DNA from: Nitrososphaerota archaeon
GTDB taxonomy: Archaea; Thermoproteota; Nitrososphaeria; Nitrososphaerales; Gagatemarchaeaceae
NCBI GenBank assembly: GCA_029785825.1
Contig: JAFLYY010000001.1
Coordinates: 1,209,374-1,273,373 of the forward strand
Length of the DNA stretch: 64,000 bases
Direction of reading: 5' to 3'
Positions 37,229 through 56,349 of the stretch are shown piece after piece. The position numbers and the translations under genes are program-made. Positions within the stretch are counted from its first letter, which is position 1, and every line of letters begins with the position of its first letter. A model generated the notes under the pieces. The model worked only from the letters and a program-made list of their open reading frames with translations, was not told the origin of the DNA and ran no database searches.

Positions 37229-37993
37229 TCAGCTGACAGTGAAGTCCACCGTGTGCGTCACTGTTCCCCCACCACCGCCTCCAATGGAGTAAGTCAGGCT
37301 CAGCGTCTCCCCCTCCGTCACCCCTGAAACCACCATGCGGACGATTATCCAGCCGCCGCCAGAAATGTCGGGTGAACAGTGGCTCCCAGTCCCAGCGGTG
37401 CAGAGATATACCCCGCCGCTGGAGTAGTATTTTGCCGTCCACCCCCCAACCAGGGTCGTCCCAGACGGAACGACGTCGTGTATCTGGGATGGGCTGATCG
37501 TGTAGCTCCCGTTGTCCACGACCTTGACCGTTACCGTGGTGTCGCCCGTCGAGCTGTTGTACACGGCGGTTTCGGATGCGAAGTACCAGGACATTCCGGT
37601 TGTCGAAGTCGAGGTCGCGGTCGTAGTGGAAGTAGTTACGGTTGAAGTCAAAGCTGTGGAGGTCGACCTAGTGGTGCTTGTGGTGGTGGAGATAGTGGAC
37701 GAGCTTGTGTGACTGGTCGAGCTGGAGGTGCTGGAAGCCCCTGACGTAGTCGTGGAGGCGACCTCCGTGGACAGGATAGGTTGGGTCGTGCTCGCGGCGA
37801 GAGACGAGGAAGAAGTGGAAGCCAGGGAAAGCGTATTGGTCGAACTGGGCGGCTGGTAAGACGAGCTCGAGGAGGATGAAGATCCGACAGAGGAACTACC
37901 TTTAGGAGCACCCACAGCCCCTGGGAGAGCCACATAAGCTGCCGCCGCAACCAAGATCACTGCGACGACAATGACTACCAATACGGTACGCAT
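37229..37993 (-). CDS. Ser/Thr-rich membrane-anchored surface protein
   Basis: 254 residues. An N-terminal helix (VLVVIVVAVILVAAAAYVAL) anchors or exports the chain. Residues about 30-130 are almost only Ser and Thr, a mucin-like stalk probably heavily O-glycosylated. The last 120 residues form a beta-rich domain (TTVTVKVVDNGSYTISPSQI) with one Cys pair (YLCTAGTGSHCSP), resembling a short CARDB/DUF11-like module. It resembles the flagellin-free surface proteins of TACK archaea. No enzymatic motif is visible. Confidence 0.7.
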   Translation of the reverse strand: MRTVLVVIVVAVILVAAAAYVALPGAVGAPKGSSSVGSSSSSSSSYQPPSSTNTLSLASTSSSSLAASTTQPILSTEVASTTTSGASSTSSSTSHTSSSTISTTTSTTRSTSTALTSTVTTSTTTATSTSTTGMSWYFASETAVYNSSTGDTTVTVKVVDNGSYTISPSQIHDVVPSGTTLVGGWTAKYYSSGGVYLCTAGTGSHCSPDISGGGWIIVRMVVSGVTEGETLSLTYSIGGGGGGTVTHTVDFTVS

Positions 37994-38058
37994 CTATGAT
38001 TCCGCTTGTTCTGTCTGGTATTAAAGCCGAGATACTCTGCGCTGACCTTCAGAGGTGC

Positions 38059-38880
38059 TCAGGAGGCTATACGACGTAGAACCAGCGATGCCAACGACAG
38101 CAGGGCGAGGGTGTAGGCTGCGAGGACAGCGAGGTCGGTCGGAAGCATCGTAAAGTTCTGGGTCAGCAGGAGCGCCCGCACCGCCTGGACACCATAACTC
38201 AACGGGTTCACCTTCGCGATCAGCTGGAGCCACTCTGGCATTATCTGCGTCGGATAGATGGCGTTGCTGGCGAAGAAGAGGGGGAATATTATCACCTGGC
38301 TGAGCCCCATCATCCTGTCCCTTGTCCGGGCAATGCTGGCTATCACCATCGATAGGCTCGAGAAACACATGGCAAGGAGTACCACGACGCCGAAGACCCC
38401 CAAGACGTACAGAGGAAAGACGCTGATCCCTGTCCCGATGGCGATGGAGAGAGCGAAGACCAGCACCCCCTGGAAAATCCCCCTTATGCTCGCCGCCAGA
38501 GCTTTCCCGACGATGATCGACGGGCGCGGGGCAGGGGTGGCGAGGAGCTTGTTCAGGAGCCCGAGGTCGCGCTCCCATACCAGAGTCACCCCATAGAAGA
38601 TCGCGATGAAGAGCACCGACTGGGAGAGGATCCCAGGCGTGATGAAGGCGATGTAGCTGAACTGGCTTGGTGCTATGTCCCGGACGCCGGCCAGGGCAGA
38701 TCCGAAAACAAGCAGCCAGAGAGCCGGCTGAATCGCTCTGATCCAGAGCTCGGAGGAGGCGTGCCTGATCTTACGGGCCTCCATCTCCGCGACCACCAAA
38801 GAACTGGTGACGAACCTTACCAGGACTGATCTCTGGCGTTCCTCGAGGGTAGCAGCTACCACGCCAGCCTCACCTGGCAT
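38059..38880 (-). CDS. ABC-2 type exporter permease
   Basis: 273 residues with six predicted helices and the ABC-2 pattern: a cytoplasmic lead ending RFVTSSLVVAEMEARKIRH, then ELWIRAIQPALWLLVFGSAL, FITPGILSQSVLFIAIFYG, ERDLGLLNKLLATPAPRP (the coupling segment) and FFASNAIYPTQIMPEWLQLI, with NPLSYGVQAVRALLL near the end. This is the DrrB/NodJ class. With the ATPase encoded just upstream (11-base overlap) it forms an export pump. The MarR gene at the head of the operon points to drug or lipid-like substrates. Confidence 0.88.
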   Translation of the reverse strand: MPGEAGVVAATLEERQRSVLVRFVTSSLVVAEMEARKIRHASSELWIRAIQPALWLLVFGSALAGVRDIAPSQFSYIAFITPGILSQSVLFIAIFYGVTLVWERDLGLLNKLLATPAPRPSIIVGKALAASIRGIFQGVLVFALSIAIGTGISVFPLYVLGVFGVVVLLAMCFSSLSMVIASIARTRDRMMGLSQVIIFPLFFASNAIYPTQIMPEWLQLIAKVNPLSYGVQAVRALLLTQNFTMLPTDLAVLAAYTLALLSLASLVLRRIAS

Positions 38881-39958
38881 GCTTCCTGAAGCTCCTCCTT
38901 GCTGACTTAGCCTGCCTGAACTCCTCGGCCTCGCCGATGCGCGTTGCCGTGTACTTCAGGAAGACGTCGTCCAGGGTGGGTCTGCTGACTGAGATGGAAG
39001 AGACATCCACTCCAGCCGCCTCGTAGGCCCTGACTATCTGAGGCACGCCCTCCTCCGCTCGCCCGCCCACCAGGATGACGTCTTCTCGTCCTCGGGCTCC
39101 CCTGCCGGGACCAGGGCCGTCGTCCTGCTTCATGAACTCGAAGCCGAGAGGGAGGACGACGGGCCCGCTTCCGAGCCCTCCCGAACCACCGCCGCCCACC
39201 CGGACAGAGACGAGCTCCCTCCCCACCCCCGCTTTCAGCTCGTCGGGAGAGCCTGAGACCACAATCTTGCCGGCGTTCATTATCGCAATCCTGTGGCAGA
39301 GCCTGTCCGCTTCGAGCATGTCGTGAGTGGTGAGGAAGATCGTGGTCCGGAGCTCTTCGTTCAGCTTCCTCACGTGTTTCCACACCTCCAACCTGGCCGC
39401 CGGGTCCAGCCCGATGCTCGGCTCGTCCAGGAACAGGACGCTGGGCCTGTTCACCAGAGCCTGCGCGATTTCAAGCCTCCGCATCATCCCGCCTGAGAAG
39501 GTCTTGACCAGGTCGTCTGACCTCTCGTCCAGCCCCATGTATTGGAGGGCTTCCCTGATCCGGGCCCCTCGCTCCGCTCGGTCGACATAGTAGAATTTCG
39601 AGAAGATCAGGAGGTTCTCATACGCCGTGAGGTCGCCGTCCACCGAGACCTCCTGCGGGACGTACCCCATCACCTGCCTGACCGCAGCCTGGTTAGCCAA
39701 GGCGTCGACGGAGCGGATGAAGATGCGTCCTGAGGTCGGGGAAGTGAGCGTCATTATCGACTTTATCACTGTCGTTTTCCCCGCGCCGTTTGGCCCGAGG
39801 AGTCCGAACACCTCTCCTTCCTTCACGTCGAATGACACGGAGTCGACCGCCCTCAGGCCGTTCGGGTAGACCTTCGTCAGGCTCTCGACCCGGACCGCAG
39901 AGCTCAGGCCGGGCGCCTGAGACCGTACCGGTTCCTGACCGGTGGTCATGTCAGCCAA
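38870..39958 (-). CDS. ABC exporter ATPase, DrrA-like
   Basis: 362 residues. Walker A is LLGPNGAGKTTVIKSIMTL, the signature is TFSGGMMRRLEIAQAL and Walker B is VLFLDEPSIGLDPAARLE, with switch His in LTTHDMLEADRL. The C-terminal DrrA-type extension contains an unusual Gly/Pro-rich insert (about residues 260-290) and then RPTLDDVFLKYT, the usual ending of antibiotic exporter ATPases. It energises the permease encoded next. It overlaps the MarR gene by eight bases, making a marR-ATPase-permease operon. Confidence 0.92.
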   Translation of the reverse strand: MADMTTGQEPVRSQAPGLSSAVRVESLTKVYPNGLRAVDSVSFDVKEGEVFGLLGPNGAGKTTVIKSIMTLTSPTSGRIFIRSVDALANQAAVRQVMGYVPQEVSVDGDLTAYENLLIFSKFYYVDRAERGARIREALQYMGLDERSDDLVKTFSGGMMRRLEIAQALVNRPSVLFLDEPSIGLDPAARLEVWKHVRKLNEELRTTIFLTTHDMLEADRLCHRIAIMNAGKIVVSGSPDELKAGVGRELVSVRVGGGGSGGLGSGPVVLPLGFEFMKQDDGPGPGRGARGREDVILVGGRAEEGVPQIVRAYEAAGVDVSSISVSRPTLDDVFLKYTATRIGEAEEFRQAKSARRSFRKHAR

Positions 39959-40394
39959 CCCCTTCGGCCCTCCTCAGGCCTTCACCGATGGGCTCGGGCC
40001 CCGCGACCTTCCTGAGGAGATTCTCGAGTTCCCTCCTCTCCCTCGCGTCCAGCCGCTCGAAGAGCGCCGAAAGGTTCCCAAGCTGCTCCCTCCGCCAGGA
40101 CGCGACCGTGTTCCCCCCCTCTTCCGTCAGCATGACTCTGACCTCCCTTTCGTCGTCCCTGTTCCTTTCTCTTGACACCAGACCCGCTTTCTCCAGCCTC
40201 TTGACCGACACCGACGCGGTGCTCGAGGTGCACTCCAGCCTATCTGCCAGGTCCTTTATCCTCTGGGGGCCCGACACGGAAAGCATCCGGAGTATCCAGT
40301 ACTGCTCTTGGGTGACATCCCCTCTCCCGACGGGAGAGGAGCTGCGCCACTTCCTCCAGATCCGCATGAAGAGGTCAGGAATCTCCGAAGCCAA
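39951..40394 (-). CDS. MarR-family transcriptional regulator
   Basis: 147 residues from TTG 40394. The winged helix is clear: GDVTQEQYWILRMLSVSGPQ, RIKDLADRLECTSSTASVSV (recognition helix), KRLEKAGLVSRERNRDDERE (wing) and VMLTEEGGNTVASW. MarR proteins are dimeric repressors that leave DNA when a small aromatic compound binds. Here it probably controls its own operon with the ABC exporter. The TATA box TTAATTAAAT at 40424-40433 is 30 bases upstream, and a 20-base motif shared with the lrp promoter lies just beyond it. Confidence 0.88.
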   Translation of the reverse strand: MASEIPDLFMRIWRKWRSSSPVGRGDVTQEQYWILRMLSVSGPQRIKDLADRLECTSSTASVSVKRLEKAGLVSRERNRDDEREVRVMLTEEGGNTVASWRREQLGNLSALFERLDARERRELENLLRKVAGPEPIGEGLRRAEGVG

Positions 40395-40445
40395 GGCTGA
40401 GCCTGACGGGGTGCGAAGCAGGATTTAATTAATCTATCTATTCAT

Positions 40446-40465
40446 TTGATGGCCTAATGATTTGA
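40446..40465. repeat. copy 1 of a 20-bp promoter motif
   Basis: TTGATGGCCTAATGATTTGA matches 18 of 20 bases with TTGATGGCCCGATGATTTGA at 63722-63741. Both copies lie 12-20 bases upstream of the TATA box of a minus-strand regulator gene, marR here and lrp there. It may be a common activator or repressor site. Confidence 0.5.
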
Positions 40466-40480
40466 GTGTGAAGGGGAGCG

Positions 40481-41080
40481 TCAGAGGTGGAGGGGCCGCT
40501 CCGTCTTCGCAAGGACCACTTCCGTGGCCTTGACGATGGCCTCGACCTCGTCCCCCGGTTTCAGGTCGAGGTCCTCGACTGCTTCGTTCGAGATTATCGA
40601 GGTAAGGCGTCCTGGCCCCCTGATCTCCATCTTGACCTCAGATGTTATGGGCCCCTCCCTCACCTCCAGGACCTTTGCCCTGATGCGGTTGCGCGCGCTG
40701 AGCCTGTAGCTGATGTGCTGCCAGAAGTCCTTGTCACCCAAGGCGCCGAAGAGATACGTGTTCAGCTTCCTGTACTCAGAGATCAAGGCAGTCCCCTCCG
40801 CCGTGAGGGAAGCCCCTCCGCCGCTCGCGCCTCCAGCCTGCGCCAGCACTATCTCCCGGCCGAGCTTCGTCTGGATCGCTCTAATGCGATCCCAGGCGCC
40901 CCGGTAGGAAATCCCCGACACCTTGGCAGCCGCAGATATCGAACGTCTCTCCGCTATGTTGTGCAAGAGCAGGGCATCTATGTGATCGATGGTGGCCCCG
41001 CTGGCATCCTTCAAGACAAGGGAGAAGCTGGGCTCGAACTCGGCTGTCCTGGGCGCGCTTCCCTGCTTAGCACGGGTCAA
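40481..41080 (-). CDS. modE: ModE-type molybdate/tungstate-responsive regulator
   Basis: 199 residues from TTG 41080, which is 28 bases from the shared TATA box at 41105-41113 (leaderless). The N-terminal LysR-like helix-turn-helix reads ISAAAKVSGISYRGAWDRIR, then LTAEGTALISEYRKL, as in ModE. The C-terminal Mop/TOBE domain reads SARNRIRAKVLEVREGPITS, VKMEIRGPGRLTSIISNEAV and LKPGDEVEAIVKATEVVLAK, which binds molybdate or tungstate. It is divergent from the transporter and storage genes, the classical place for their repressor. An upstream open extension would cross the promoter and is rejected. Confidence 0.9.
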   Translation of the reverse strand: MTRAKQGSAPRTAEFEPSFSLVLKDASGATIDHIDALLLHNIAERRSISAAAKVSGISYRGAWDRIRAIQTKLGREIVLAQAGGASGGGASLTAEGTALISEYRKLNTYLFGALGDKDFWQHISYRLSARNRIRAKVLEVREGPITSEVKMEIRGPGRLTSIISNEAVEDLDLKPGDEVEAIVKATEVVLAKTERPLHL

Positions 41081-41104
41081 CGGGGCACAGCCACAACACG
41101 CCAG

Positions 41105-41113
41105 CTTAAATAG
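41105..41113. promoter_or_regulatory. shared TATA box of modE and the transporter operon
   Basis: CTTAAATAG serves modE (TTG 41080) on one side and the binding-protein gene (ATG 41142) on the other, each at 27-33 bases. ModE bound here would control both directions at once. No obvious ModE palindrome is visible. Confidence 0.6.
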
Positions 41114-41141
41114 GCCGTTATGCATGGCTCTGCATATCGCT

Positions 41142-42194
41142 ATGCGCCTGACCAGGAGAGGTGTCTCGACAGTCGCGGTTACTGTCATCGTCATACTGAT
41201 AGTGGTCGCCTCGGTAGGCGCCTACGCGTACGTCACCTACTATGGGACTGGGAAGCCGAAGGTCCCGCTGATAGTCTACACCGCCGACCTGTACACGCGA
41301 GAAGCGAGCTACCTCTACAGCGGCTTCTCCAACTCCACCGGGGTCCCATATGCGGCCCCGAACGGCGGCGGCTCGAACGCCCTGGCCACGCAGATCGCGC
41401 AAGGGACCCCCGTAAGCGTATTCATTTCAGTCGCGAAGCCGACCCTCGGGTCGGCCGACTTGGGCACGCAGTACTCCGGGTGGGGGATCGCCTTCGCCGC
41501 CGACCAGATGACCCTCGGCTACACCAGTTCCGCCGGACAGCCCAGCGAATTCCAGCCGATCCTCAAAGCCTATCAGGCGGCGAACTCCTCGAACAGCGCC
41601 GCCGACTGGAAGGCCTTCTTCTCAGACCTGGTATCGGGGTCGGTCAAAGTCGGGATTTCCAACCCCAACACAGACCCCGCAGGCTTCCGAGGGTGGATGG
41701 TGCTTGAAGCCGCGGGCGCAGAATATGCCGGGAACTCCTCCTACTTCACAGACATGCTCCTGCAGTCGGGGAGCAACGTCACTCGCACCAGCGCGTCCGA
41801 CCTCGTCGCCCCTCTCCAAGCCGGGCAGATCCAGTTCCTCTTCATGTACAAGTCGTCTGCAATCTCTGACCATATCCAGGCGCTGAACCTGCCCAACCAT
41901 GTGAACCTGGGAGACCCGGCGCTGTCCAGCTTCTACTCTCAATTCAGCTATCAGACCACATCGGGGCTCCAGACGGGAGGGCCCATCTATCTGTACGTCA
42001 CAGTCCCCAAGAACAGCGCCGAGACGACATACGCGCTGCAGTTCGTAGTCTACATAGTCCAGCACTCGTCTGACATGTCAGCGTTCGGGATGGTCCCTCT
42101 CAGCCCGGCCAAGCTCTACAACAGTACGCAAGTCCCGGCCCCCATCGCCCAGCTCCTCACGAGCGGGACGCTCGTTGAGAGTGGAACCATCTGA
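41142..42194 (+). CDS. molybdate/tungstate-binding protein of an ABC importer (ModA/WtpA-like)
   Basis: 350 residues from ATG 41142, chosen by TATA distance over ATG 41124. A signal anchor (STVAVTVIVILIVVASVGAYAYV) is followed by a type II periplasmic-binding fold: PLIVYTADLYTREASYLYSG, GGGSNALATQIAQGTPVSVF, GIAFAADQMTLGYTSSAG, KVGISNPNTDPAGFRGWMVL (the DPxG oxyanion loop), LVAPLQAGQIQFLFMYKSSA. This layout is that of ModA/WtpA family proteins. The protein would capture molybdate or tungstate outside the cell, tethered to the membrane. The choice between the two metals cannot be made from sequence. Confidence 0.85.
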   Translation: MRLTRRGVSTVAVTVIVILIVVASVGAYAYVTYYGTGKPKVPLIVYTADLYTREASYLYSGFSNSTGVPYAAPNGGGSNALATQIAQGTPVSVFISVAKPTLGSADLGTQYSGWGIAFAADQMTLGYTSSAGQPSEFQPILKAYQAANSSNSAADWKAFFSDLVSGSVKVGISNPNTDPAGFRGWMVLEAAGAEYAGNSSYFTDMLLQSGSNVTRTSASDLVAPLQAGQIQFLFMYKSSAISDHIQALNLPNHVNLGDPALSSFYSQFSYQTTSGLQTGGPIYLYVTVPKNSAETTYALQFVVYIVQHSSDMSAFGMVPLSPAKLYNSTQVPAPIAQLLTSGTLVESGTI

Positions 42195-42970
42195 ACTGGC
42201 TACGTCCCCTCGCGTATGTCCCCCTTGCCCTCCTCGTCTTGCCTGTCTTCGCACTCCTCTACTGGGGGTTCGGGCCCCTCTTCTCCGCCGAGGGGTTCAA
42301 CGTCGGGGTCCTCAGGTCCATAGAGGTCACCCTGCTCGCATCCGGACTGACCGTGGTCACGGAGATACTTCTTTTCACCCCCCTTGCATATCACCTGGCA
42401 AGAAGCAAGAACGAGGCAGCCGAAACCCTGGCGGACATCCCTGCCTCCATCCCCCACCCCATCATCGGGATAGCCCTGGTCGTCCTCGACAGCCCCCTCA
42501 CCCCGACGGGGAGGTTCCTGAACTCGATAGGGATCAATTTCTTCGATACCCTGCTTGGGATGGTCGTCGCACTGACCATAATTTCCGCTCCGATATACAT
42601 CAAGGCGATGCAGCCCTTCTTCGAATCGATGAACAGGGCCCCGGAGGACTTCGCCCTGGGGCTCGGGGCGTCGCGCCTGAAGACTTTCGTCTCGGTCGCG
42701 CTCCCCAACTCGGGGAACGGGATAATGGGCGCGTCCCTGATCGCCCTCAGCAGGGCGATGAGCGAGTTCGGGTCAATCGTGATAATCTCCTATGCGCTTC
42801 TGTCATTCCCCCTGGGGCTGGGAGGTGTCAGTCCGGCGTCCGTGCTGATCTTCAACCTCTACAGCTCAAACGGCCTCAACGCCGCTGTGACCGCTTCAGC
42901 GACCCTGGTCGTCGTGTCCATCCCCATCATGGTGGCGTTGAGGGTCGTCAAGCACAGGGCGACAACTTAA
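42191..42970 (+). CDS. molybdate/tungstate ABC importer permease (ModB/WtpB-like)
   Basis: 259 residues if read from CTG 42191, which overlaps the TGA stop of the binding-protein gene (CTGA). The nearest standard start, TTG 42239, would cut the first membrane helix (LAYVPLALLVLPVFALLYWG) in half, so CTG is preferred. There are six helices and the EAA loop APEDFALGLGASRLKTFVSV followed by ALPNSGNGIMGASLIALSRAMSEFGS, a hallmark of ModB/WtpB/CysT permeases (the ARAxGEFG region reads SRAMSEFGS). It forms the channel for the oxyanion. Confidence 0.87.
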   Translation: MNWLRPLAYVPLALLVLPVFALLYWGFGPLFSAEGFNVGVLRSIEVTLLASGLTVVTEILLFTPLAYHLARSKNEAAETLADIPASIPHPIIGIALVVLDSPLTPTGRFLNSIGINFFDTLLGMVVALTIISAPIYIKAMQPFFESMNRAPEDFALGLGASRLKTFVSVALPNSGNGIMGASLIALSRAMSEFGSIVIISYALLSFPLGLGGVSPASVLIFNLYSSNGLNAAVTASATLVVVSIPIMVALRVVKHRATT

Positions 42971-42998
42971 GCACCCCTGAGCGCGGAGCCCGCCTCGT

Positions 42999-43604
42999 TT
43001 GCTTGACGTGCAAGTCACGTTCCAGAGGGGGAACCTGGTCCTATCGGGGGAGCTGCACGACGGCGGGTGCATCTGCCTGTCAGGGCTAAACGGGTCTGGG
43101 AAGACCACACTCCTCAACGTCGTCGCCGGGAACCTGAGCCCGAAGACGGGATATGTGAAGGTCGGCGGGGCTGATGTGACCCGGCTCCCCTCCGAGAAGA
43201 GAGGGGTGGTGCTCGTCAGCCCGGACTCTCTGATCCCGCACCTAGACGTAGAGAGGCACCTCCGCTGGGGCGCCGAGGTGAAGAAGGAGCCCCTCGACGG
43301 GGCGACGCTCTCAGGAGTGAAGGACAGGCTCGGGATTTCGTTCTCCGGGCGCGTTGACAGGCTGAGCCTGGGTATGAGGGAGAGGGTCTCGCTTGCCACC
43401 GCTCTCCTGTCGAGACCGAAGGCGATACTGGTAGACGAGGCGTTTTCGAACATCGACCATAGGGACGACTTCGTGTCCGCCTACAGAGGACTCTGCGCTG
43501 CCGGGGGGATCGACCTAGTCTTCACGACGCAGCAGCAGTCGGAGGCGAGTCTGGCGGACCACCATTACGAGATGGTAAACGGTAGGTCGAGCAGGCTCTT
43601 CTGA
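42999..43604 (+). CDS. short ABC importer ATPase (ModC/WtpC-like)
   Basis: 201 residues from TTG 42999. Walker A is LSGLNGSGKTTLLNVVAG, Walker B is KAILVDEAFSNIDHRDD, and the region between reads VLVSPDSLIPHLDVERHL, as in importer ATPases. The signature LSGGQ is changed to LSLGMRERVSLATALL, and the Mop/TOBE domain usual in ModC/WtpC is absent, so the protein is about 150 residues shorter than typical. It should power the permease encoded just before it. The lack of a regulatory domain suggests that metal sensing lies in ModE alone. Confidence 0.83.
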   Translation: MLDVQVTFQRGNLVLSGELHDGGCICLSGLNGSGKTTLLNVVAGNLSPKTGYVKVGGADVTRLPSEKRGVVLVSPDSLIPHLDVERHLRWGAEVKKEPLDGATLSGVKDRLGISFSGRVDRLSLGMRERVSLATALLSRPKAILVDEAFSNIDHRDDFVSAYRGLCAAGGIDLVFTTQQQSEASLADHHYEMVNGRSSRLF

Positions 43605-43620
43605 GTTGGATTCCCTGGAC

Positions 43621-43630
43621 TGCTTAAATA
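43621..43630 (+). promoter_or_regulatory. TATA box of the storage-protein genes
   Basis: GCTTAAATAC lies about 28-30 bases before ATG 43656, so the two storage genes probably also have their own leaderless transcript, separate from the transporter operon. Confidence 0.55.
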
Positions 43631-43655
43631 CGAACCTGGACACGCCGCGGCTCCG

Positions 43656-44429
43656 ATGAAGAGTTCTTCTGGCCTCGCAGAGTCATTGGGACCATCAGAG
43701 AAAGGGTTCAGGCTCCTCCCTGACTCCTGGGTGGTGAAGGTCGGCGGCCAGAGCATCATAGACAGAGGGAAGGCAGCCCTCGTCCCAGTAGTGGAGGAGC
43801 TGACGAGGAACTTCCTCGCAGACAAGAAGATCATAATCGGGACCGGAGCGGGGACCCGGGCGAGGCACATCTACAGCCTTGCCATCGAGTTCGGGCTCCC
43901 CACGGGCGTCCTCTCGGCCCTTGGCGCGGGCGTCGCCTCTCAGAACGCGCGTATGGTCGGATGGCTACTTTCGAAATATGGAATACCCGTCCTCAACCCT
44001 GGGGAGCTCAGCTCCAAGCTCGCTTTCGACCTCGAGGAGAGGAGGGCGGTGGTCTTTCCCGGGATGCCTCCCTATGCCTTCTGGGAGAGATACCCCAACG
44101 TAGGGCTCATCCCGCCGCACAGGACTGACACCGGGTGCTACCTAGTGGCGGAGACGTTCGGGGCCGCCGGCATGCTGTACGTGAAAGACGAAGACGGCCT
44201 GTACGCAGATGACCCGAAGAAGAACCCCGACGCAGAATTCATACCGAAGGCATCGCCGAAGGAGGTCATGGGCATGAAGCTCCCTGACCTGGTCGTCGAG
44301 CAGCCGGTCCTCGAATTCATGGCGCTGGGGAAGCATGTGAGGAAGATACAGATAGTTAACGGCCTTAAGCCTGGGAACATCACCAGGGCGCTGAGAGGGG
44401 AGCAAGTTGGCACAGTCATCGAAGCATAG
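43656..44429 (+). CDS. mosB: molybdenum storage protein subunit beta-like (amino-acid-kinase fold)
   Basis: 257 residues. It follows the beta subunit of the Azotobacter-type Mo/W storage protein along its length: VVKVGGQSIIDRGKAALVPV, IIGTGAGTRARHIYSLAIEF, LPTGVLSALGAGVASQNARM, AVVFPGMPPYAFWERYPNVG, LIPPHRTDTGCYLVAETFGA, LYVKDEDGLYADDPKK and VNGLKPGNITRALRGEQVGT. These motifs (GTGAGTRARH, GMPPY, IPPxRTDxG) separate it from true UMP kinases. In bacteria the protein cage uses ATP to pack molybdate or tungstate as polyoxometalate clusters. Downstream of a Mo/W importer, storage of the same metal is the natural role. Confidence 0.85.
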   Translation: MKSSSGLAESLGPSEKGFRLLPDSWVVKVGGQSIIDRGKAALVPVVEELTRNFLADKKIIIGTGAGTRARHIYSLAIEFGLPTGVLSALGAGVASQNARMVGWLLSKYGIPVLNPGELSSKLAFDLEERRAVVFPGMPPYAFWERYPNVGLIPPHRTDTGCYLVAETFGAAGMLYVKDEDGLYADDPKKNPDAEFIPKASPKEVMGMKLPDLVVEQPVLEFMALGKHVRKIQIVNGLKPGNITRALRGEQVGTVIEA

Positions 44430-45249
44430 GGGAGAAGACTACCTGCTGAGCGGCGAGAGCCGCCACGTGCAGTCAGGCTTCATGAAGGACTCGCTCCTGA
44501 GCGAGAAGACGAAGAGGCGCTCCGAGGCGTCGGTCTACCCCCTGATGCCGAGCGTGACCGCGATCCAGATAGGAGGAAGGCTAGTCGATTCCGGGAGGGA
44601 CGCGATTCTCCCCATTCTGGCGGAGATTCGCAGGAACCTGAAGCAGCACAAGGTCATCGTGGCTGCCGGTTCCGGCAAGAGGGCGAAACATGTCCTTGCT
44701 GTGGCGAACGACCTGGGTCTCCCACTTGGCTTGAGGGCCGAGCTGAGGAGGCTAGACACCGAGTTGAACGCCCACATAATCGGAGCCCTTCTGTCACCTT
44801 ACGGCATAGCCGAGCTGACTCATGCGGAGATGGTCCACATGCTCCCAGCGATGCTCGAGATATCCAGGGCGGTGGTCTTCAACGGGGTCCCTCCATACGA
44901 CATCTGGGAGCACATCAGGGCAGACGCGTCTGAGCCCCCTACGGGAGCCGACGCAGGGGTCTTCCTTTTCGCCGAGACTTGCGGGATGAAGAGGGTGATC
45001 TTCGTCAGGGACGTCGACGGGATCTACGAGGAGGACCCGGTAACTCACCCATCAGCCAAGCTCGTCAAGAGGGCCATGGCCGGCGACATGAGCACGAGGC
45101 CGAGCACCTGCGTCGACCAAGAGGTGTTCAGGCTCCAGGCGGCGGGCCGGCATCAGATAGACGTCTCGGTCGTGAACGGGCTGAAGAGAGGCGCACTCTC
45201 CACCGCCCTCAGGGGCGGGAACCCCGGGACTCTCGTCAGAGCGCACTGA
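44407..45249 (+). CDS. mosA: molybdenum storage protein subunit alpha-like (amino-acid-kinase fold)
   Basis: 280 residues from TTG 44407, overlapping the previous gene by 23 bases. An N-terminal extension of about 45 residues precedes the fold, as in MosA. Motifs run in the same order as in MosA/MosB: AIQIGGRLVDSGRDAILPIL, VIVAAGSGKRAKHVLAVAND, LPLGLRAELRRLDTELNAHI, AVVFNGVPPYDIWEHIRADA, GADAGVFLFAETCGMKRVIF, VRDVDGIYEEDP and VNGLKRGALSTALRGGNPGT. It differs from its partner in the IPPxRTD loop (SEPPTGAD). The two should form a mixed cage like the bacterial alpha3-beta3 particle. It could still be a paralogue with another oxyanion cargo. Confidence 0.82.
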   Translation: MAQSSKHRGEDYLLSGESRHVQSGFMKDSLLSEKTKRRSEASVYPLMPSVTAIQIGGRLVDSGRDAILPILAEIRRNLKQHKVIVAAGSGKRAKHVLAVANDLGLPLGLRAELRRLDTELNAHIIGALLSPYGIAELTHAEMVHMLPAMLEISRAVVFNGVPPYDIWEHIRADASEPPTGADAGVFLFAETCGMKRVIFVRDVDGIYEEDPVTHPSAKLVKRAMAGDMSTRPSTCVDQEVFRLQAAGRHQIDVSVVNGLKRGALSTALRGGNPGTLVRAH

Positions 45250-45489
45250 GGAGCAGGCCTCGCCCGGCCGACCAGACGCCTGCGATTCCGTTTGGCTCGT
45301 TCCGACAGGCTTGTTGACCCCCTTTGTCATTCGTTCTTCTCGCTCAATGTGGCCACTCGCTCCTCCCTGGATCGCGCAAGCCAAACCCGACGACTGGGAG
45401 ACGCAGGCAGAGTGGTCGTCACGGCAGCCGCGTCCTGACGAGGACGTTTCAGCGGGGGTCACCAGCAGGATGTGACATTCGAGAGTAGA

Positions 45490-46248
45490 TTATCCACGGA
45501 TGACCTTGACAAGCCTCTTCACCACTTCGTCGTCAGACCCTTGTATGAGTTCTTTCTTCCTTTCCGGGCTCCGCATCATGCTCAGCCCGATGACTTCGGT
45601 GCGCGAGCCCTCGAGGCCGACATCTCCGGTCGCGAACCCGAGGTCCTGGTTGCTCATCACCCTGAGCTTGAATTCGTTCTCCGCCCACCTCTTCCTCCGG
45701 AAGTCGGGGAACCTTGGGGAGTTGCATCCGAGCTGTACGCTCACCAGGACAGGGGGCCTCACCTCCACTGTCTCATGGCCGTCTGTGACCTCGCGCCTAG
45801 CCCTCAACTTGTCCCCGTCGACTCCGATTTCGCTAACATAGCTGACCTGCGGGATGCCGAGCCAACCCGCGGTGCTCGGCGGGACCTGTTCGGTGCTCCC
45901 GTCGGATGACGCTTCTCCACACATCACCAAGTCGAACGGCTTCAGCTTCTCTATGCCCGCGGCGAGGACCCGCGACGTGGCGTACGTGTCAGCACCTCCG
46001 AACACCCTGTCGCTGAGCAGGACTGCGTCGTCCGCCCCCATGGCCACCGCCAGCTTGAGGAAGGGCTCGAACGAGGGCGGCCCCATCGAAAGAACCGTCA
46101 CCTTCCCTCCCGTAGAATCTTTCAGTTTGAGCGCTGCCTCCAGGGCGTTCTTGTCTGCGTCGTTGATCACGTTTTCCACCCCTTCCCTCACTATCGTCTT
46201 CCGCTGTTCGTCGAATTTGATCTGCTCGATCTTAGGAGCGACCTTCAT
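45490..46248 (-). CDS. etfB: electron transfer flavoprotein beta subunit
   Basis: 252 residues from ATG 46248. The family pattern is clear: EGVENVINDADKNALEAALK, KVTVLSMGPPSFEPFLKLAV, GADDAVLLSDRVFGGADTYA, TSRVLAAGIEKLKPFDLVMC and GEASSDGSTEQVPPSTAGWL, binding AMP or FAD. The first beta strand (NTIVCMKVAP in related proteins) begins before this ATG. The only upstream start, TTG 46332, lies deep inside etfA, so the real start may be a non-standard codon near 46266. ETF carries electrons from flavoenzymes. It is the last gene of the kor-hdr-etf operon. Confidence 0.88.
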   Translation of the reverse strand: MKVAPKIEQIKFDEQRKTIVREGVENVINDADKNALEAALKLKDSTGGKVTVLSMGPPSFEPFLKLAVAMGADDAVLLSDRVFGGADTYATSRVLAAGIEKLKPFDLVMCGEASSDGSTEQVPPSTAGWLGIPQVSYVSEIGVDGDKLRARREVTDGHETVEVRPPVLVSVQLGCNSPRFPDFRRKRWAENEFKLRVMSNQDLGFATGDVGLEGSRTEVIGLSMMRSPERKKELIQGSDDEVVKRLVKVIRG

Positions 46249-46253
46249 GCAGA

Positions 46254-47240
46254 CTATTGTGTTCGTGTACCCCCGCCCCCGAGCTCTGAAATCAGCCTGG
46301 GGACAAGCTTCCTTGCGTCCCCGACGACACAATAGTCAGCGTGCTTGAATATTTCAGCGCATGGGTCCGAGTTCACTGCCACCACAGTCTCCACATTCCT
46401 CAGCCCGGACGTAAAGTGCGCCGCCCCGCTCACCCCCACCACCACGGCCAGCTTAGCACTCAGGCTGACGCCAGTCGAGCCGACCACCAGGTTCTTGGGG
46501 GCCATCCCCTTGTCAGCCAGAGGTCTCGACACGCCGAACGTCGAGCCTGAAACTTCAGCCAGCTCCTTCGGCAACGTCAGGTCGTCTTTGCATCCCAGCC
46601 CTGCAACTACCACCCTCTGGGCCTTCCTCACGCCCTCCCCATGCTGGACAGCCCTCTCGACCACCTGGCACCTGACATCCTCGGGTTTGAGCGCCACTGG
46701 GAACGGTTCCACCGTCCCTGCCTGGTCCGTGGGGGTAGGCGCCGGGAATACGCCGGGCCTCACCGTCGCCATCTGGGGCCTCCCTTTCTTGCACTTGCAG
46801 ATCGCGACTATGCTTCCACCGAATCCTGGCACCGAGCCTAACAACATGCCTGTCCCCCGCTCAATCTCCAAGTCGACCACGTGGGCCATGAGGCCCGCCC
46901 CGAGCCTGACGGCCAGCACCCCGGCCAGGGCGGTGCCGTTGTGGGTCGCCCCAATGAGGAGGATGCCAGGGTCCCGTTCCTTCACCATGGCCGCGACCAC
47001 GTCAGCGTACGCTTCCGCGGTGAAATTCTTCAGGACCGGCGAGTCGGCCGCCAGCACCAAGTCGGCCCCCCTATGCGCGCACTCTTCGGCCAGCGCTTGG
47101 ACTCCCTCTCCCAGAATGACCCCAGTCACCCTTGCGCCGAGCTTGCCCGCTATCTCCCTGCCCTTTCCGAGCACCTCGTACGAGGAGTCCTCTACGACGC
47201 CATCAATCTGCTCGAGGAAGACTAGCACTCCGTCGGCCAT
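46254..47240 (-). CDS. etfA: electron transfer flavoprotein alpha subunit
   Basis: 328 residues. The N-terminal domain (VLVFLEQIDGVVEDSSYEVL, GKGREIAGKLGARVTGVILG) leads to the C-terminal FAD domain with VVVAGLGCKDD, SGSTFGVSRPLADKGMAP, VGSTGVSLSAKLAVVVGVSG and VVAVNSDPCAEIFKHADYCV. The usual GISGAIQHLAG reads GVSGAAHFTSG, a mild departure in the flavin loop. It pairs with EtfB. It lies five bases before the stop-start junction with the HdrC-HdrB fusion, within the same operon. Confidence 0.92.
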   Translation of the reverse strand: MADGVLVFLEQIDGVVEDSSYEVLGKGREIAGKLGARVTGVILGEGVQALAEECAHRGADLVLAADSPVLKNFTAEAYADVVAAMVKERDPGILLIGATHNGTALAGVLAVRLGAGLMAHVVDLEIERGTGMLLGSVPGFGGSIVAICKCKKGRPQMATVRPGVFPAPTPTDQAGTVEPFPVALKPEDVRCQVVERAVQHGEGVRKAQRVVVAGLGCKDDLTLPKELAEVSGSTFGVSRPLADKGMAPKNLVVGSTGVSLSAKLAVVVGVSGAAHFTSGLRNVETVVAVNSDPCAEIFKHADYCVVGDARKLVPRLISELGGGGTRTQ

Positions 47241-47244
47241 ACGA

Positions 47245-48390
47245 CTAACCCTCTCCGTTCCCTACGAAGCCTGCGAGGATTTCAGCGACGTCCCTAATCA
47301 TCACCTTCGAACCGACAGTCTTGACCCCATCCTCGAAGTTGAGGACGCAGAAGGGACATGCCGTGGCCATGACCGAGGCGCCTGACTCTTCTGCCTGGGC
47401 GATCCTCTTGTGGCTAGGCCGCGCCCCCTCTGACTCGACGTACATCCCGCCTCCTCCCCCACCACAGCAGAGGGCGTTGCTCCTGTTGTCATCCATCTCG
47501 TTCAGCTTGAGGCCGGAGACGCTCTCGAGGAGCTTCCTAGGTTCTTCGTATATCCCGCCGTACCTCCCGAGATAGCACGGGTCGTGATACGTCACCGTCT
47601 GGCCGTCGAAGTCGTCGGCACGTTCCAGCTTGAGTTGGTCGTGGTCGAGCATCCCGGAAAGGAACTCCGTGTAATGGAGGACTTGAGGGAGTGAGCCGTA
47701 CTTCGGGTAGACGTCCCTGAAGACGCCGTTGCTGTGAGGTGAAATCGTTATGATGTCTTCCGCTCCTATGTTCTTGAACGACTCGATGTTAGACTGGGCC
47801 AGCTCCTCGAGGAACCCCTCTTCGCCAATTTGGTACACCTCGTCCCCTGAACTCTTCTCCTTGTCCCCGAGGACTGCGAAGTCGACTCCCGTGGAATTGA
47901 AGATCTTCACCAGCGACCGGGCGATACGCTGGAGGCGCGGGTCGAAAGAGGCCGCATCGTCCAGGTAGAGGAGGTGCTTGGCCGTCGACCCCACCTTTAC
48001 TTTGAGACCCTCCGCCCACCTCATCCTTTCGGTCTTCTTCCCCTCCCAGGCGGTCCCCTCTTCGTAGACCCTCCAGAGCGCGCTTTCCAGCTTAGGAGGG
48101 ACCTTCCTGTCCTTGTAACTCAAGCCTCTCAGAGAGTGAATCACCCCCGTGATCTCCACGCCTCGGGGACATGCAACCTCGCACTCCTTGCAGGTTGCGC
48201 ATTGCCACAAAGAATCGGTGATAGCCAGCTCTCTGATTGCAGTCTGGGCTCCTCGCATTATCCTCCTTACGGGGACGTTCATGGGGCAGACCGCCGTGCA
48301 CGTGCCGCACTGGTAGCACGAGGACAGGGAGCCAGGGACAGTCTCCGAGAGCGCCCTGCTGAATTCGACGTCTGGGGACTGGGCGCTCAT
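47245..48390 (-). CDS. HdrC-HdrB-type iron-sulfur oxidoreductase (HdrD/GlpC-like fusion)
   Basis: 381 residues. The N-terminal HdrC-like part has two 4Fe-4S motifs (SCYQCGTCTAVCPMNVP and QCATCKECEVACPRG). The C-terminal HdrB-like part should have two CCG domains. The second is intact (YHDPCYLGR, ALCCGGGGGGMY, TACPFCVLN). In the first, the cysteines are replaced by Ser (EKSSGDEVYQIGEEGF and TISPHSNGVF, where relatives have CxGD and CPHC). So only one non-cubane cluster can form. Such proteins carry electrons between HdrA, ETF and a disulfide or quinone. Its context between hdrA and etf genes supports an electron bridge. Confidence 0.85.
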   Translation of the reverse strand: MSAQSPDVEFSRALSETVPGSLSSCYQCGTCTAVCPMNVPVRRIMRGAQTAIRELAITDSLWQCATCKECEVACPRGVEITGVIHSLRGLSYKDRKVPPKLESALWRVYEEGTAWEGKKTERMRWAEGLKVKVGSTAKHLLYLDDAASFDPRLQRIARSLVKIFNSTGVDFAVLGDKEKSSGDEVYQIGEEGFLEELAQSNIESFKNIGAEDIITISPHSNGVFRDVYPKYGSLPQVLHYTEFLSGMLDHDQLKLERADDFDGQTVTYHDPCYLGRYGGIYEEPRKLLESVSGLKLNEMDDNRSNALCCGGGGGGMYVESEGARPSHKRIAQAEESGASVMATACPFCVLNFEDGVKTVGSKVMIRDVAEILAGFVGNGEG

Positions 48391-48397
48391 CGCCTTC

Positions 48398-49297
48398 TTA
48401 CGCCCCCCTCGCCTTCACCTTGGCGGCGGTCGACTGCAGCTCCGCTTCGGACAGCTTGGCGACCAGTTCAGACATCTCGGTCGCCTTGTCAGAAAAGCGC
48501 CTGGGCTCTGCGGCGCTGACCCACCAGAGCTGCAGGCGGTCTGGGCTCACCCCCCTCGCCTTCAGCTGTGTCCTCCACCGCTCCACCCGCTTCTCCGTCT
48601 GGAGGTTCGCGTTGATGTAGTGGCAGTCTCCCGGATGGCACCCGGTGACCAAGACCGCCCCCACCCCCTTGGAAAACGCGTGCATGACCAGCTTCTGAGA
48701 GACCCTCCCGGAGCACATCGTCCTGATTACACGCGTGTTGGACGGGTACTGTATCTTCATGACCCCCGCCAGGTCTGCCCCGGCGTAGGAGCACCAGTTG
48801 CAGGCGTAGATCAGGACCTTGTTGTTGGCCCCTTCCTCCAGGGCCGCATCCACCTGCGCCATTATCTGCTTGTCAGTGAACCCTTCTTGCGTGAGCGCCC
48901 CCTCCACCATGCACTCGGCCACGCAGGTCCCGCACCCCTGGCAGGCCGCCGCGACGAACTCGACTTCCTTCCTGACCTCGCCCAGTATCGCTCCGTAGGG
49001 GCAGACGGAGATGCATCGGCCGCACTTGGTGCAGATTTCGGGGCTGACCACGGCCACGAAGGGCTCGCGTTCGACGACGTTCCTCGAGATTATCGCCGAC
49101 ACCTTCGCCGCGGCCGCCAGCGCCTGGAGCGCCGACTCCTTCACGTTCTTCGGGTATTGGACCGTCCCCGCGAGCATGACACCCTGCACCGCGGCCTCGG
49201 CAGGTCCCAGCTTCGGGTGGCTCTCGAGTGCGAACCCCGCACGGTCCACCGTCACTTTGAGCTGTTGGAGGACATTCCCTTTCTCACTCTCGCTCAT
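48398..49297 (-). CDS. HdrA C-terminal part fused to an MvhD domain
   Basis: 299 residues. The first 70 (LKVTVDRAGFALESHPKLGP, EAAVQGVMLAGTVQYPKNVK) continue the flavin domain that ends the preceding gene. Two 4Fe-4S motifs follow (ICTKCGRCISVCPYGAI and ACQGCGTCVAECMVEGAL), then an MvhD-type 2Fe-2S domain (YACNWCSYAGADLAGVMKIQ, MCSGRVS, GCHPGDCHYI). In methanogens MvhD links hydrogenase to HdrA. No hydrogenase gene is here, so electrons probably come from the ferredoxin oxidoreductase. ATG 49297 overlaps the hdrA stop (ATGA). Confidence 0.88.
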   Translation of the reverse strand: MSESEKGNVLQQLKVTVDRAGFALESHPKLGPAEAAVQGVMLAGTVQYPKNVKESALQALAAAAKVSAIISRNVVEREPFVAVVSPEICTKCGRCISVCPYGAILGEVRKEVEFVAAACQGCGTCVAECMVEGALTQEGFTDKQIMAQVDAALEEGANNKVLIYACNWCSYAGADLAGVMKIQYPSNTRVIRTMCSGRVSQKLVMHAFSKGVGAVLVTGCHPGDCHYINANLQTEKRVERWRTQLKARGVSPDRLQLWWVSAAEPRRFSDKATEMSELVAKLSEAELQSTAAKVKARGA

Positions 49298-51825
49298 GGC
49301 GACCCCCTCTTACGTACCAGTCCGACATTCAGGACCGTGAGGTCGGTCGGGAGCACTACGTCCCTCCCGCTCAGTTCGTCCTTCACCACGAGGTTCCCAT
49401 TGGCGCGCTCTATCGAGTCCTGGGGGAGCGCCTGCTGGGGGTACTGGTAGAACCTTACTCCCAGCTCGCCCGCCTTCTCGTACTCCTCCTCCCCGAAGCG
49501 GGTGAATGTCCTGATGTCTTTGTAGAGGACGTTGACCTCGTTCCCCTTCTCCTTCAGCCTGACCGCCTGGTTGATCATCGTCTGGCAGCAGAACCTAGAG
49601 CACCCATTCGCGTCGTTCCTTGACCCGACGCAGGAGATGATCGAGACCTTCTTCCCTGCGACTTTTTCCATCATCCCATCGAGCTCCAAGCTAGTCACCA
49701 CGTCCGGGTTCTTTCCATATCCGAACTCGGTGGGCACATAGGGTTCCGCTCCGGTCGCGACCACTACCGCACCTGCGGTGAACTCTGTTCCGTCAGTAAG
49801 GCGGACGTCATAGCTCCCCACGAACCCTGATATCGTCTCGACGGTGGCCGCGGTGTGGATTTTCGCGCCGCTCTCCTTCAGCTCTCTGAGTAGAGGGGCG
49901 AGTAACTCCTTCGACTCCACCCTTAGTGGTGCCACTTCAGTGACCGAGTTGAGCAGTCCGCCGAGCGATTCCTGCTTCTCGACCAGGTGTGCCTCGAACC
50001 CCTGCTTTGCGAGGTTAGTCGCAGCGACTATGCCGGCTATCCCTCCTCCCACCACCAGCGCAGTCTGGGCGACCGGGAACTTCATTGTCTGGAGGGGCTT
50101 CATGTTCAGCGCCCTCAGCACGGACATCTTCACCATGTCCTTCGCCTTCTCCAAGGCACCCTCCCTGTCCTCCTTGTGTACCCAAGAGTCCATGTTCCTG
50201 ATGTTGGCCATGTCCAAGAGGTATGGGTTCAAGCCTGCGCGGGTCAGCGCACCCTGGAAGGTGGCGTAGTGGGTCTTGGGAGTACAGGCAGCCACGACTA
50301 TGCGGTTGATCTGCTTGTCCCTGATGACGGCGCTCATGTCGTTGAGGGTGCTCGCGCCGCAGGAGTACGTCTGGTCTTGGACGTGGACCACGTTGGGGAG
50401 CGTCTTTGCGAAGTCCAGGACGGACCTAATGTCGACCACCCCGGCGATGTTGGAGCCGCAGTGGCAGACGAAGACCCCGATTCTCGGGGGCCCCTCGGTG
50501 CTTATCTGAACTACTTCGGCGGGCTGGGGCCAGGACCGGTTCTTCACGTGGGTGAGGGCCTTCGCCACCGCCGCCCCTGCTTCAATCACGCTGTCAGGTA
50601 TGTCCTTCGGGCCGGTGCTGCACCCCGCGAGGTAGATGCCAGGCCTCGTGCTCGAGTTGAAGCCCCCTTCCTTGTCAGCCGACGCGAAGAACCCATCTGG
50701 GCCGAGCCCGATCCCTATGGTGCGCGCAAGCTCGGGGGTCCCTCTGGCGGGTATGGCGGCCGTGGCGAGGACGACCATGTCGTAGTCTTGCTCAATCTTC
50801 TCCCCCCCGTCCTCGGTGTTCTCGAAGAAGACCTTGATTCTCTCTCCGTCAGGCGAGACCTTCGCGGGCCTGGTCCTAGTGAATCGCACCCCTGCCGCCC
50901 TGGTGCGGTCATAGAACTCGTCAAAGCCCTTCCCATAAGCCCTGATGTCCATGTAGGCCACATCGACTTCCTTGACGCCGTGGTCCTTGAGCTGGTACGC
51001 CTCCTTGATGCCATACATGCAGCAGATTCTCGAGCAGTAGGGGGCCAGTCTCTCGTCTCTGGATCCGGCACAGAGGACAAAGAGCACCCTCTCGGGGTGG
51101 TTCCCGTCCGACGGCCTGACGATCTCTCCCATACTCGGTCCCGACGCCTGAAGGATCCGCTCCAGCTCCATGGACGTCAGGATGTCCGGGTGCTTCCCAT
51201 ACCCGAACTCCCTGAGGAGCGTCGGGTCGAGCAGGTCGAACCCGGTGGCCACCACGACCGCGGCCACCTCCCTTTCGATGAGCGCGGGCGTCATGGTGAA
51301 GTCGATGGCGTTAGGCCCGCATGCGTCCGTGCACCTGCTGCAGGGGAGCAGGTTCGGAGGCTCGTTCAGGCAGTTCTTCTCATCGACCACGTAGGGTCCG
51401 GGGACTGACTGCTCGATAGGGGCATAGATCGCCTTCCTTGCCGCCATGCCGTAGTCGAACTCGTTCTTCACTATGACAGGGCAAGCCGTCACACATTCGC
51501 CGCACCTCGTGCACGCGTCTGTGACGTACCTTGCGTCCTGCTTGATGAGTACCTTGAACCTCCCCGCGTCGCCGTCGACCTGCTCTACCTCGGCCATGGC
51601 CAGTAGCTCGATGTTAGGGTTGAGCCCCACCTCGCTCATCTTCGGGGACTCGATGCAGATGGAGCAGTCAAGAGTCGGGAAGTTCTTGTCCAAGACCGAC
51701 ATCTTTCCCCCGACCGTGGGGCTCCTCTCCACCAGGGTGACCTTGGCTCCGGCGTTAGCGGCGTCTAGGGCCCCCTGGATGCCCGCAATGCCTCCCCCGA
51801 TTATCAGAATCCTATCTTCAGACAA
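49294..51825 (-). CDS. hdrA: double HdrA-like flavoprotein (C-terminally split)
   Basis: 843 residues. The first module has an FAD loop ILIIGGGIAGIQGALDAANA, the HdrA signature NFPTLDCSICIESPKM, an inserted ferredoxin (ACTRCGECVTACP, CLNEPPNLLPCSRCTDAC) and LFVLCAGSRDER. From about residue 470 a second HdrA begins with its own iron-sulfur domain (IGVFVCHCGSNIAGVVDI, YSCGA, AACTPKTHY) and a second FAD loop (TALVVGGGIAGIVAATNLAK). This half stops before its C-terminal ferredoxin, which is in the next gene. HdrA flavins can split electron pairs between ferredoxin and a higher-potential partner. Two flavin modules in one chain is unusual. Confidence 0.9.
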   Translation of the reverse strand: MSEDRILIIGGGIAGIQGALDAANAGAKVTLVERSPTVGGKMSVLDKNFPTLDCSICIESPKMSEVGLNPNIELLAMAEVEQVDGDAGRFKVLIKQDARYVTDACTRCGECVTACPVIVKNEFDYGMAARKAIYAPIEQSVPGPYVVDEKNCLNEPPNLLPCSRCTDACGPNAIDFTMTPALIEREVAAVVVATGFDLLDPTLLREFGYGKHPDILTSMELERILQASGPSMGEIVRPSDGNHPERVLFVLCAGSRDERLAPYCSRICCMYGIKEAYQLKDHGVKEVDVAYMDIRAYGKGFDEFYDRTRAAGVRFTRTRPAKVSPDGERIKVFFENTEDGGEKIEQDYDMVVLATAAIPARGTPELARTIGIGLGPDGFFASADKEGGFNSSTRPGIYLAGCSTGPKDIPDSVIEAGAAVAKALTHVKNRSWPQPAEVVQISTEGPPRIGVFVCHCGSNIAGVVDIRSVLDFAKTLPNVVHVQDQTYSCGASTLNDMSAVIRDKQINRIVVAACTPKTHYATFQGALTRAGLNPYLLDMANIRNMDSWVHKEDREGALEKAKDMVKMSVLRALNMKPLQTMKFPVAQTALVVGGGIAGIVAATNLAKQGFEAHLVEKQESLGGLLNSVTEVAPLRVESKELLAPLLRELKESGAKIHTAATVETISGFVGSYDVRLTDGTEFTAGAVVVATGAEPYVPTEFGYGKNPDVVTSLELDGMMEKVAGKKVSIISCVGSRNDANGCSRFCCQTMINQAVRLKEKGNEVNVLYKDIRTFTRFGEEEYEKAGELGVRFYQYPQQALPQDSIERANGNLVVKDELSGRDVVLPTDLTVLNVGLVRKRGSP

Positions 51826-52378
51826 GGCTCTCGATGCTCCTCCCCTTCGCCTTGTTCGCGAGTTCGGCGCCGACGCTTAGCGCCTTAACGTTCAGCTCCG
51901 CGGCCCTGGGAAACCTCTCGGCAACTGCCGCCTTCAGTGACTCGAAAGACTGCGGGGACGCCAGCGCCGCCATGGCGCCGAGCATCACGATGTTCATCAC
52001 CATCTTTTTCCCGAGGTTCTCCGCTGCCTCCCCCGCAGGAATCGGGAAGACCCGCCTGTCTCCCACCACCTTCGACAGGTCGACCAGCTTCTCCTCGGTT
52101 ACGACGACCCCGCCAGGTTTCACCATTTTCAGGTTAAGGTCGAGACCTTCTTGGTACATCGTCACCAATGCGTCGAGTTTCGATACCAGCGGGTAGTCGA
52201 TGGGCTCGTCTGAGACGACGATGTCTGCCCTGGACCAACCGCCGGTCACGTATGGGCTGTATCCTTCAGTCACGACGGCTTCCTTCCCTTCATGGAGGGC
52301 GGCTGCGCTGCCGAAGATGTGCCCTGCGGTGATTGCGCCCTGGCCTCCGAGTCCCGTGATCCTAGCTTCGAACTTCAT
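51818..52378 (-). CDS. korC: 2-oxoacid:ferredoxin oxidoreductase gamma subunit
   Basis: 186 residues: FEARITGLGGQGAITAGHIF, EGYSPYVTGGWSRADIVVSD, YPLVSKLDALVTMYQEGLDL, VRRVFPIPAGEAAENLG-like RRVFPIPAGEAAENLGKKMV and MVMLGAMAAL, which is the normal gamma fold that contacts coenzyme A. It overlaps hdrA by eight bases and korB by four, so the catalytic enzyme and HdrA are translationally linked. Confidence 0.93.
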   Translation of the reverse strand: MKFEARITGLGGQGAITAGHIFGSAAALHEGKEAVVTEGYSPYVTGGWSRADIVVSDEPIDYPLVSKLDALVTMYQEGLDLNLKMVKPGGVVVTEEKLVDLSKVVGDRRVFPIPAGEAAENLGKKMVMNIVMLGAMAALASPQSFESLKAAVAERFPRAAELNVKALSVGAELANKAKGRSIESLV

Positions 52379-54413: not shown

Positions 54414-54721
54414 TGCAGCGGCACCTCCTTGGCGTAGATTGCGAACTCGGGGCAGACGGCCTGGCACATGCCGCAGTTCACGCAGTCGTTCTCCTTGCCG
54501 GCCTTCACCCTCGGATGCCGATACCCCGAGGCGTTAATCTCGTCCGACATCTCGAGCACCTCGTTCGGGCAGAAGGTCCAGCAGTAGTCGCACTCCTTGC
54601 ACCTCTCGGGGATTATGTAGACTCGCGCGAGCGGCTTCGAAAACTTCGATGCGTTGATTGGCTCGCGGGTAATCGCCCCCGGGCCGAGTTCTTTCTTCCC
54701 GACCGCGAGTCGTTGCGTCAA
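54410..54721 (-). CDS. korD: 2-oxoacid:ferredoxin oxidoreductase delta (ferredoxin) subunit
   Basis: 103 residues from TTG 54721, leaderless behind TATA-like GTTATAGTTTTAC (about 54733-54746). Two 4Fe-4S motifs, RCKECDYCWTFCPNEVL and DCVNCGMCQAVCPEFAI, form the bacterial-type ferredoxin that receives electrons from the thiamine centre. It is the first gene of the ten-gene kor-hdr-etf operon. Confidence 0.93.
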   Translation of the reverse strand: MTQRLAVGKKELGPGAITREPINASKFSKPLARVYIIPERCKECDYCWTFCPNEVLEMSDEINASGYRHPRVKAGKENDCVNCGMCQAVCPEFAIYAKEVPLQ

Positions 54722-54855
54722 CGAATCGCGGCGGCTCGTAAAACTATAACATCATTTTGTAGTCGAAATAGTACCTGGGTCGTATATTCGATTAATGCTA
54801 ACTAATTAGGGAATAGCGGTAAATCCTCGCCACGTCTACAAGACGGAAAGTTCCA
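54722..54855. promoter_or_regulatory. divergent control region of the kor-hdr-etf operon
   Basis: The 134 bases are strikingly AT-rich compared with their surroundings. They hold the minus-strand TATA box of korD, a palindrome CTAATTAG near 54800 and AT-rich boxes that can serve the plus-strand regulator gene. Operator sites for the divergent regulator are expected here but cannot be pinned down. Confidence 0.5.
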
Positions 54856-56299: not shown

Positions 56300-56317
56300 T
56301 ACAGATGTTTCCGCCGA

Positions 56318-56328: not shown

Positions 56329-56349
56329 CCCTTCAGAACGTGCACCCTA

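Follow-up and report, generated by a model that had tools for sequence, protein, structure and literature searches.

Does an archaeal gene cluster that places an importer for molybdate or tungstate next to two relatives of the bacterial molybdenum storage protein (MoSto; subunits alpha, MosA, and beta, MosB) encode a system of uptake and storage, and would its cage hold the metal as the bacterial one does? The cluster lies in a stretch of 64,000 nucleotides of a Nitrososphaerota archaeon (GenBank assembly GCA_029785825.1, contig JAFLYY010000001.1, positions 1,209,374 to 1,273,373), referred to below as the window. An earlier note on this DNA had proposed an archaeal locus in which an importer of Mo/W type, a ModE-like regulator and an alpha/beta pair of MoSto type stand together, which the archaeal small-subunit (SSU) rRNA and the family matches bear out. 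We consider it probable that the locus is a molybdenum (or tungsten) uptake-and-storage operon with an ATP-filled, MoSto-like cage of altered cavity chemistry.

Two MoSto-like subunits and their importer

All genes named in the earlier note were confirmed in the 64-kb window with their positions and motifs, and its view that two overlapping genes encode relatives of the MoSto subunits over nearly their full length held up. The product of the mosB-like gene (from 43656) matched MoSto beta in the PDB at E 1.8e-83 over residues 15-257 of 257, and that of the mosA-like gene (from 44407) matched MoSto beta at 2.2e-45 over residues 26-279 of 280 and MoSto alpha at 9.2e-44, with UMP kinases far behind (E 4e-10 and 3.5e-4, respectively). 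Structure prediction with AlphaFold2 covered the monomers: the mosB-like product (pLDDT 84, with 6rj4_B as fold match at E 2.6e-30) and the mosA-like product (pLDDT 80) both gave MoSto chains as their first fold matches, and the TM-score of both against the MoSto chains among their top matches was about 0.8-0.9. In a tree with UMP kinases as outgroup, the check that the note had suggested, all MoSto sequences including the pair formed one group apart from the UMP kinases (100/100). The archaeal alphas clustered together (100/100) and joined the Azotobacter-type alphas (94/92), the window's alpha-like protein being placed among alphas at 94/92 and 83/87; the archaeal betas clustered together at 96/99, and the separation between the alphas as a whole and the betas as a whole had poor support (52-54).

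A paralogous pair of kinases of the amino acid kinase (AA-kinase) family with a small-molecule substrate, standing beside the transporter by chance, would share the fold of UMP kinase, the curated models of which match weakly, and MosB of Azospirillum is auto-annotated as a uridine kinase. Such a pair is nevertheless quite improbable: the curated kinase models stay far under their cut-off (pyrH, 56.8 and 48.1 bits versus 158), the genome seems to have a UMP kinase of its own (L003), the tree keeps MoSto and UMP kinases apart, and both the alpha/beta gene order and a Mo/W importer close by are seen again in other phyla. A reading of the pair as kinases was rejected on model scores, tree and fold. 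Elsewhere in the phylum, six weak matches (E 4e-21 to 4e-16) were set aside; the five that were read fully (L013, L015, L016, L017, L018) resemble UMP kinases and were assigned to the outgroup. In public records MosB is labelled uridine or UMP kinase (NC_013859.1 and other Azospirillum plasmids), and the MoSto family is therefore probably under-reported.

Ahead of the pair, the binding protein, permease and ATPase that the note had called molybdate/tungstate-type are upheld as such by matches to SBP_bac_11/WtpA, WtpB and ABC_tran. The best NCBIfam match of the binding protein was WtpA (1.5e-27), with PDB 3cfz at E 9.2e-20, and that of the permease was WtpB (1.5e-38); all three proteins match the Wtp models best or nearly best, each under the curated WtpA/B/C cut-off. 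The ATPase, of 201 amino acids, has Walker A and B motifs and the signature LSLGM. From the archaeal WtpABC/ModABC importers the set thus differs in its sub-threshold scores, and also in a short ATPase with altered catalytic loops and in one missing binding-protein ligand.

Cavity residues, use of the metal and proposed mechanism

In the beta-like protein, Lys28 and Met137 stand at the positions of Kb42 and Mb149, both retained in 10/10 beta sequences, and GTGAGTRARH and VKDEDG are retained as well; Mb149 presumably has a mechanistic role in MoSto. The motif of the alpha N-terminal arm, H[VLM]xSxxxxx[ST]L, is retained in the alphas; the arm, which we take to close the beta ATP site in MoSto, has low pLDDT in the predicted model. 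With MoSto of Azotobacter vinelandii (MosA/MosB; 2OGX, 4F6T, 6RKD) the pair accordingly shares two AA-kinase-fold subunits, the beta ATPase-side residues, the Met gate and the alpha arm, whereas it is archaeal, comes from a genome with no nitrogenase match and lies directly 3' of a Wtp-like importer. Variants of residues discussed here exist in the PDB as H156A (alpha, 6h6w) and Kb42S (beta, 6ris).

The alpha ligands of A. vinelandii are His-a156 and Glu-a129 for the Mo8 cluster and three His-a140 for W3 (PMC8154434, PMC4504029); numbering on chain 2OGX_A gives the same letters. The three occur together only in four Azotobacter/Azospirillum-type alphas among those aligned. Two Planctomycetota alphas (G1018, G1041) have none of them, and the alphas of the bacterial loci L010 and L011 retain only His156. 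The alpha-like protein of the window retains His-a130.

Absence of genes from genomes was judged by family searches alone. The source genome (G000) has five matches to PF02738 (Mo-hydroxylase) and one to PF00384 (DMSO-reductase-type), and its sibling G561 has three to PF02738. AOR-type tungsten enzymes (PF02730) gave no match in the source genome, nor did nitrogenase (PF00148) in eight carriers of the pair, the source genome among them. A complete genus-mate without the storage pair (G338) had no match to PF02738, PF00384 or PF02730. In these few genomes the enzyme content is consistent with storage for molybdenum hydroxylases.

Several observations weigh against an uptake-and-storage operon. 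By alignment, the window's alpha-like protein has Thr138, Met149 and Asp165 in place of Glu129, His140 and His156, and Gln54 in place of alpha Lys45. In the ATPase other residues stand in place of the Q-loop Gln and the H-loop His, and there is no TOBE domain; replacements of the same kind, with the same short form and signature, occur in the ATPase (7346-7951) of L007, the locus of a sibling metagenome-assembled genome (MAG), and with a dN/dS of 0.134 between the two the atypical ATPase is therefore maintained rather than decaying. Of the Asp and Glu of Archaeoglobus fulgidus ModA, which we take to be its oxyanion ligands, the binding protein retains Asp and has Ala for Glu, so that the Mo/W specificity of the importer follows from family resemblance and neighbours, not from ligands; the binding protein of L009, the corresponding locus of a Micrarchaeota MAG, retains Glu. 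In that Micrarchaeota carrier, none of the four Mo/W enzyme families searched (PF02738, PF00384, PF02730, PF00148) had a match. The beta-pump mechanism of MoSto, with Met gate and alpha arm, is reportedly set out in a 2019 PNAS paper.

The note's reading of an uptake-and-storage locus with a cage like that of bacterial MoSto is kept in part: the beta ATPase-side residues and the alpha arm motif are there, and the alpha ligands are not. It had itself named a lack of metal-cluster residues as a reason to give its reading up, and for the known A. vinelandii ligands Glu129, His140 and His156 this lack was found. With these ligands missing, the same polyoxometalate chemistry is not to be assumed, and the pair is kept apart from A. 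vinelandii-type MoSto for that reason. A MoSto-type cage might instead pump or buffer single oxyanions, for Mo/W homeostasis or detoxification, and build no polyoxometalate clusters. The retained pump-side residues with all three tested ligands lost agree with this, as do the similarly depleted bacterial alphas and the Micrarchaeota carrier without Mo/W enzyme matches; on the other hand, some A. vinelandii clusters have no covalent ligands and stay in place chiefly through van der Waals contacts (PMC4504029), and His130 is kept. We regard such a single-oxyanion cage as unlikely.

There is a fair probability that the pair works like MoSto. In the uptake-and-storage reading, the importer would bring molybdate or tungstate into the cell, and the two AA-kinase-fold proteins would assemble into an alpha3-beta3 cage as in MoSto. 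The beta-like subunit may use ATP to push the oxyanion through the cage wall, the alpha N-terminal arm closing the beta ATP site, and the metal would be held inside at sites unlike those of the A. vinelandii alpha. The stored metal would supply molybdoenzymes and not nitrogenase, while the ModE-like protein may sense cytoplasmic oxyanion and control the operon through a repeat at its start. The hexamer, its ATP-driven filling, the identity of the metal, storage and regulation are what we infer within this reading. More tentatively, archaea may have a cage derived from MoSto whose cavity chemistry is new and in which Mo or W is stored as clusters for molybdenum hydroxylases, independently of nitrogen fixation.

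Layout of the locus and the ModE-like regulator

The features of the locus are collected in Table 1. The reading frames of the mosA-like and mosB-like genes share 23 nt. As called, the open reading frames (ORFs) of the regulator (to 41194) and of the binding protein (from 40989) run into each other and are too long; the true start of the regulator is likely at or below about 41099 (-), revised because the 5' extension is missing from L007, and that of the binding protein is likely one of the two given in the table.

Table 1. Features of the putative uptake-and-storage locus (window positions)
Feature	Coordinates	Strand	Evidence and remarks
ModE-like regulator, winged helix-turn-helix (HTH) and single Mop/TOBE domain	40481..41194	-	Pfam HTH_1 2.9e-06, TOBE 4.8e-14
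TATA-like box TTAAATA	41106..41112	+	sequence reading; L007 and L008 have the same box
Candidate ModE operator, inverted repeat CGTTATGCA-N6-TGCATATCG	41116..41139	none	
Wtp/Mod-type oxyanion-binding protein	41142..42194	+	SBP_bac_11 5.3e-18; start 41124 or 41142
ABC permease, WtpB-like	42239..42970	+	BPD_transp_1 1.3e-10; start uncertain, frame open upstream
Short atypical ABC ATPase	42999..43604	+	ABC_tran 1.8e-21
MoSto beta-like subunit (mosB-like)	43656..44429	+	PDB 4f6t_B/2ogx_B E 1.8e-83
MoSto alpha-like subunit (mosA-like), TTG start	44407..45249	+	PDB 2ogx_B 2.2e-45, 2ogx_A 9.2e-44

The gene divergent from the importer, which the note had described as a ModE-type regulator, encodes a ModE-like protein with HTH_1 and Mop/TOBE domains, with TIGR00638 (Mop) over its cut-off and PDB matches to ModE/ModG/Mop. 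It resembles ModE regulators in this domain pair, in its divergent orientation and in the palindrome at the promoter, and differs in having one TOBE domain instead of two and in scoring 68.4 bits versus the cut-off of 98.5 of the ModE model (TIGR00637). The arms of the candidate operator are unchanged in L007 and L008, and the spacer differs. Its core, CGNTAT-N12-ATANCG, a pattern picked after the repeat had been seen, occurs once in the 64 kb versus 0.01 expected. Against the full Escherichia coli ModE consensus, ATCGNTATATA-N6-TATATANCGAT (PMC545781), the repeat agrees at 13/20 positions, a level reached about once per simulated window, and the full consensus was rejected here as chance.

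Downstream, the mosA-like gene and the eIF2 gamma gene are separated by about 11 kb (window 45265-56309), including ETF subunits and a CCG/4Fe-4S oxidoreductase, a stretch not present there in L007. The eIF2 gamma gene of L007 (9666-12851, 1061 amino acids) carries an intein, compared with 436 amino acids at window 56305-57615, and NAD synthase has 646 amino acids in L007 (13275-15215) versus 267 at window 58045-58848, which suggests an insert, possibly an intein.

Conservation, distribution and significance

Window 37918-45264 corresponds to L007 2273-9609 at 89.5% DNA identity. The whole block is conserved in the sibling MAGs, and dN/dS values against L007 of 0.026 (mosB-like), 0.082 (mosA-like), 0.126 (binding protein) and that of the ATPase given above indicate purifying selection on these genes. 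A scan of genome contigs gave five relatives, namely two sibling MAGs (98%), the Micrarchaeota MAG (69%), and an alphaproteobacterium and a planctomycete (51%). The pair was found in 1/398 genomes of the window's phylum (the source genome only), in 2/25 of its genus (the source genome included) and in 1/148 of the order of the Micrarchaeota MAG (G400 only); in that MAG the related pair has a Wtp importer nearby. Bacterial carriers, query genomes counted, numbered 2/399 in one phylum and 3/392 in another, and Azospirillum plasmids also carry it. This patchy spread suggests horizontal transfer.

That bacteria are the hosts from which this family is otherwise known, and that only 2 of the 25 genus genomes searched are carriers, might point to an assembly or binning artefact with bacterial genes on an archaeal contig. 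This is highly improbable: the same block occurs in sibling MAGs with synonymous-site divergence, contig C1 of the source genome (1.97 Mb, 100% complete) is 1.7 Mb long and includes the archaeal SSU rRNA, and the Micrarchaeota contig fits its own bin. Segments of the latter correlated in tetranucleotide use at 0.69-0.92 with other contigs of that bin and at 0.1-0.5 with the window, so that composition gives its misbinning no support. The habitat, judged by the names of related MAGs, is likely acid mine drainage.

In Alphaproteobacterium OFTM82 (L010) a molybdate ABC importer and an alpha/beta pair lie about 0.7 kb apart (mosAB-modABC), likewise with no nitrogenase match, and the pairing of importer and storage genes is thus not special to archaea. 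Unlike in the window, the importer genes are on the opposite strand, a CbiQ-like gene lies upstream and the alpha gene comes first; the alpha has His156, and Ala at position 45. The CbiQ-like membrane protein upstream of mosAB occurs in two bacterial phyla (L010 2700-3947; L011 5755-6993), passing the Pfam cut-off only in L010. Tub/Mop proteins (PMC11980592) share the role of storing W or Mo inside the cell, whereas they are unrelated small TOBE proteins without ATPase.

The note had known of no archaeal system joining importer, regulator and storage cage. In agreement with it, no archaeal MoSto is described in the open-access literature searched, a search that left subscription papers mostly outside, so that priority is not established. 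The locus suggests that metal is hoarded outside nitrogen-fixing bacteria. With alpha/beta pairs in archaea of two lineages, and in several bacteria that give no nitrogenase match, the hoarding of metal would be uncoupled from the fixation of nitrogen; the altered cavity, for its part, is an experiment of nature on which residues determine whether clusters form.

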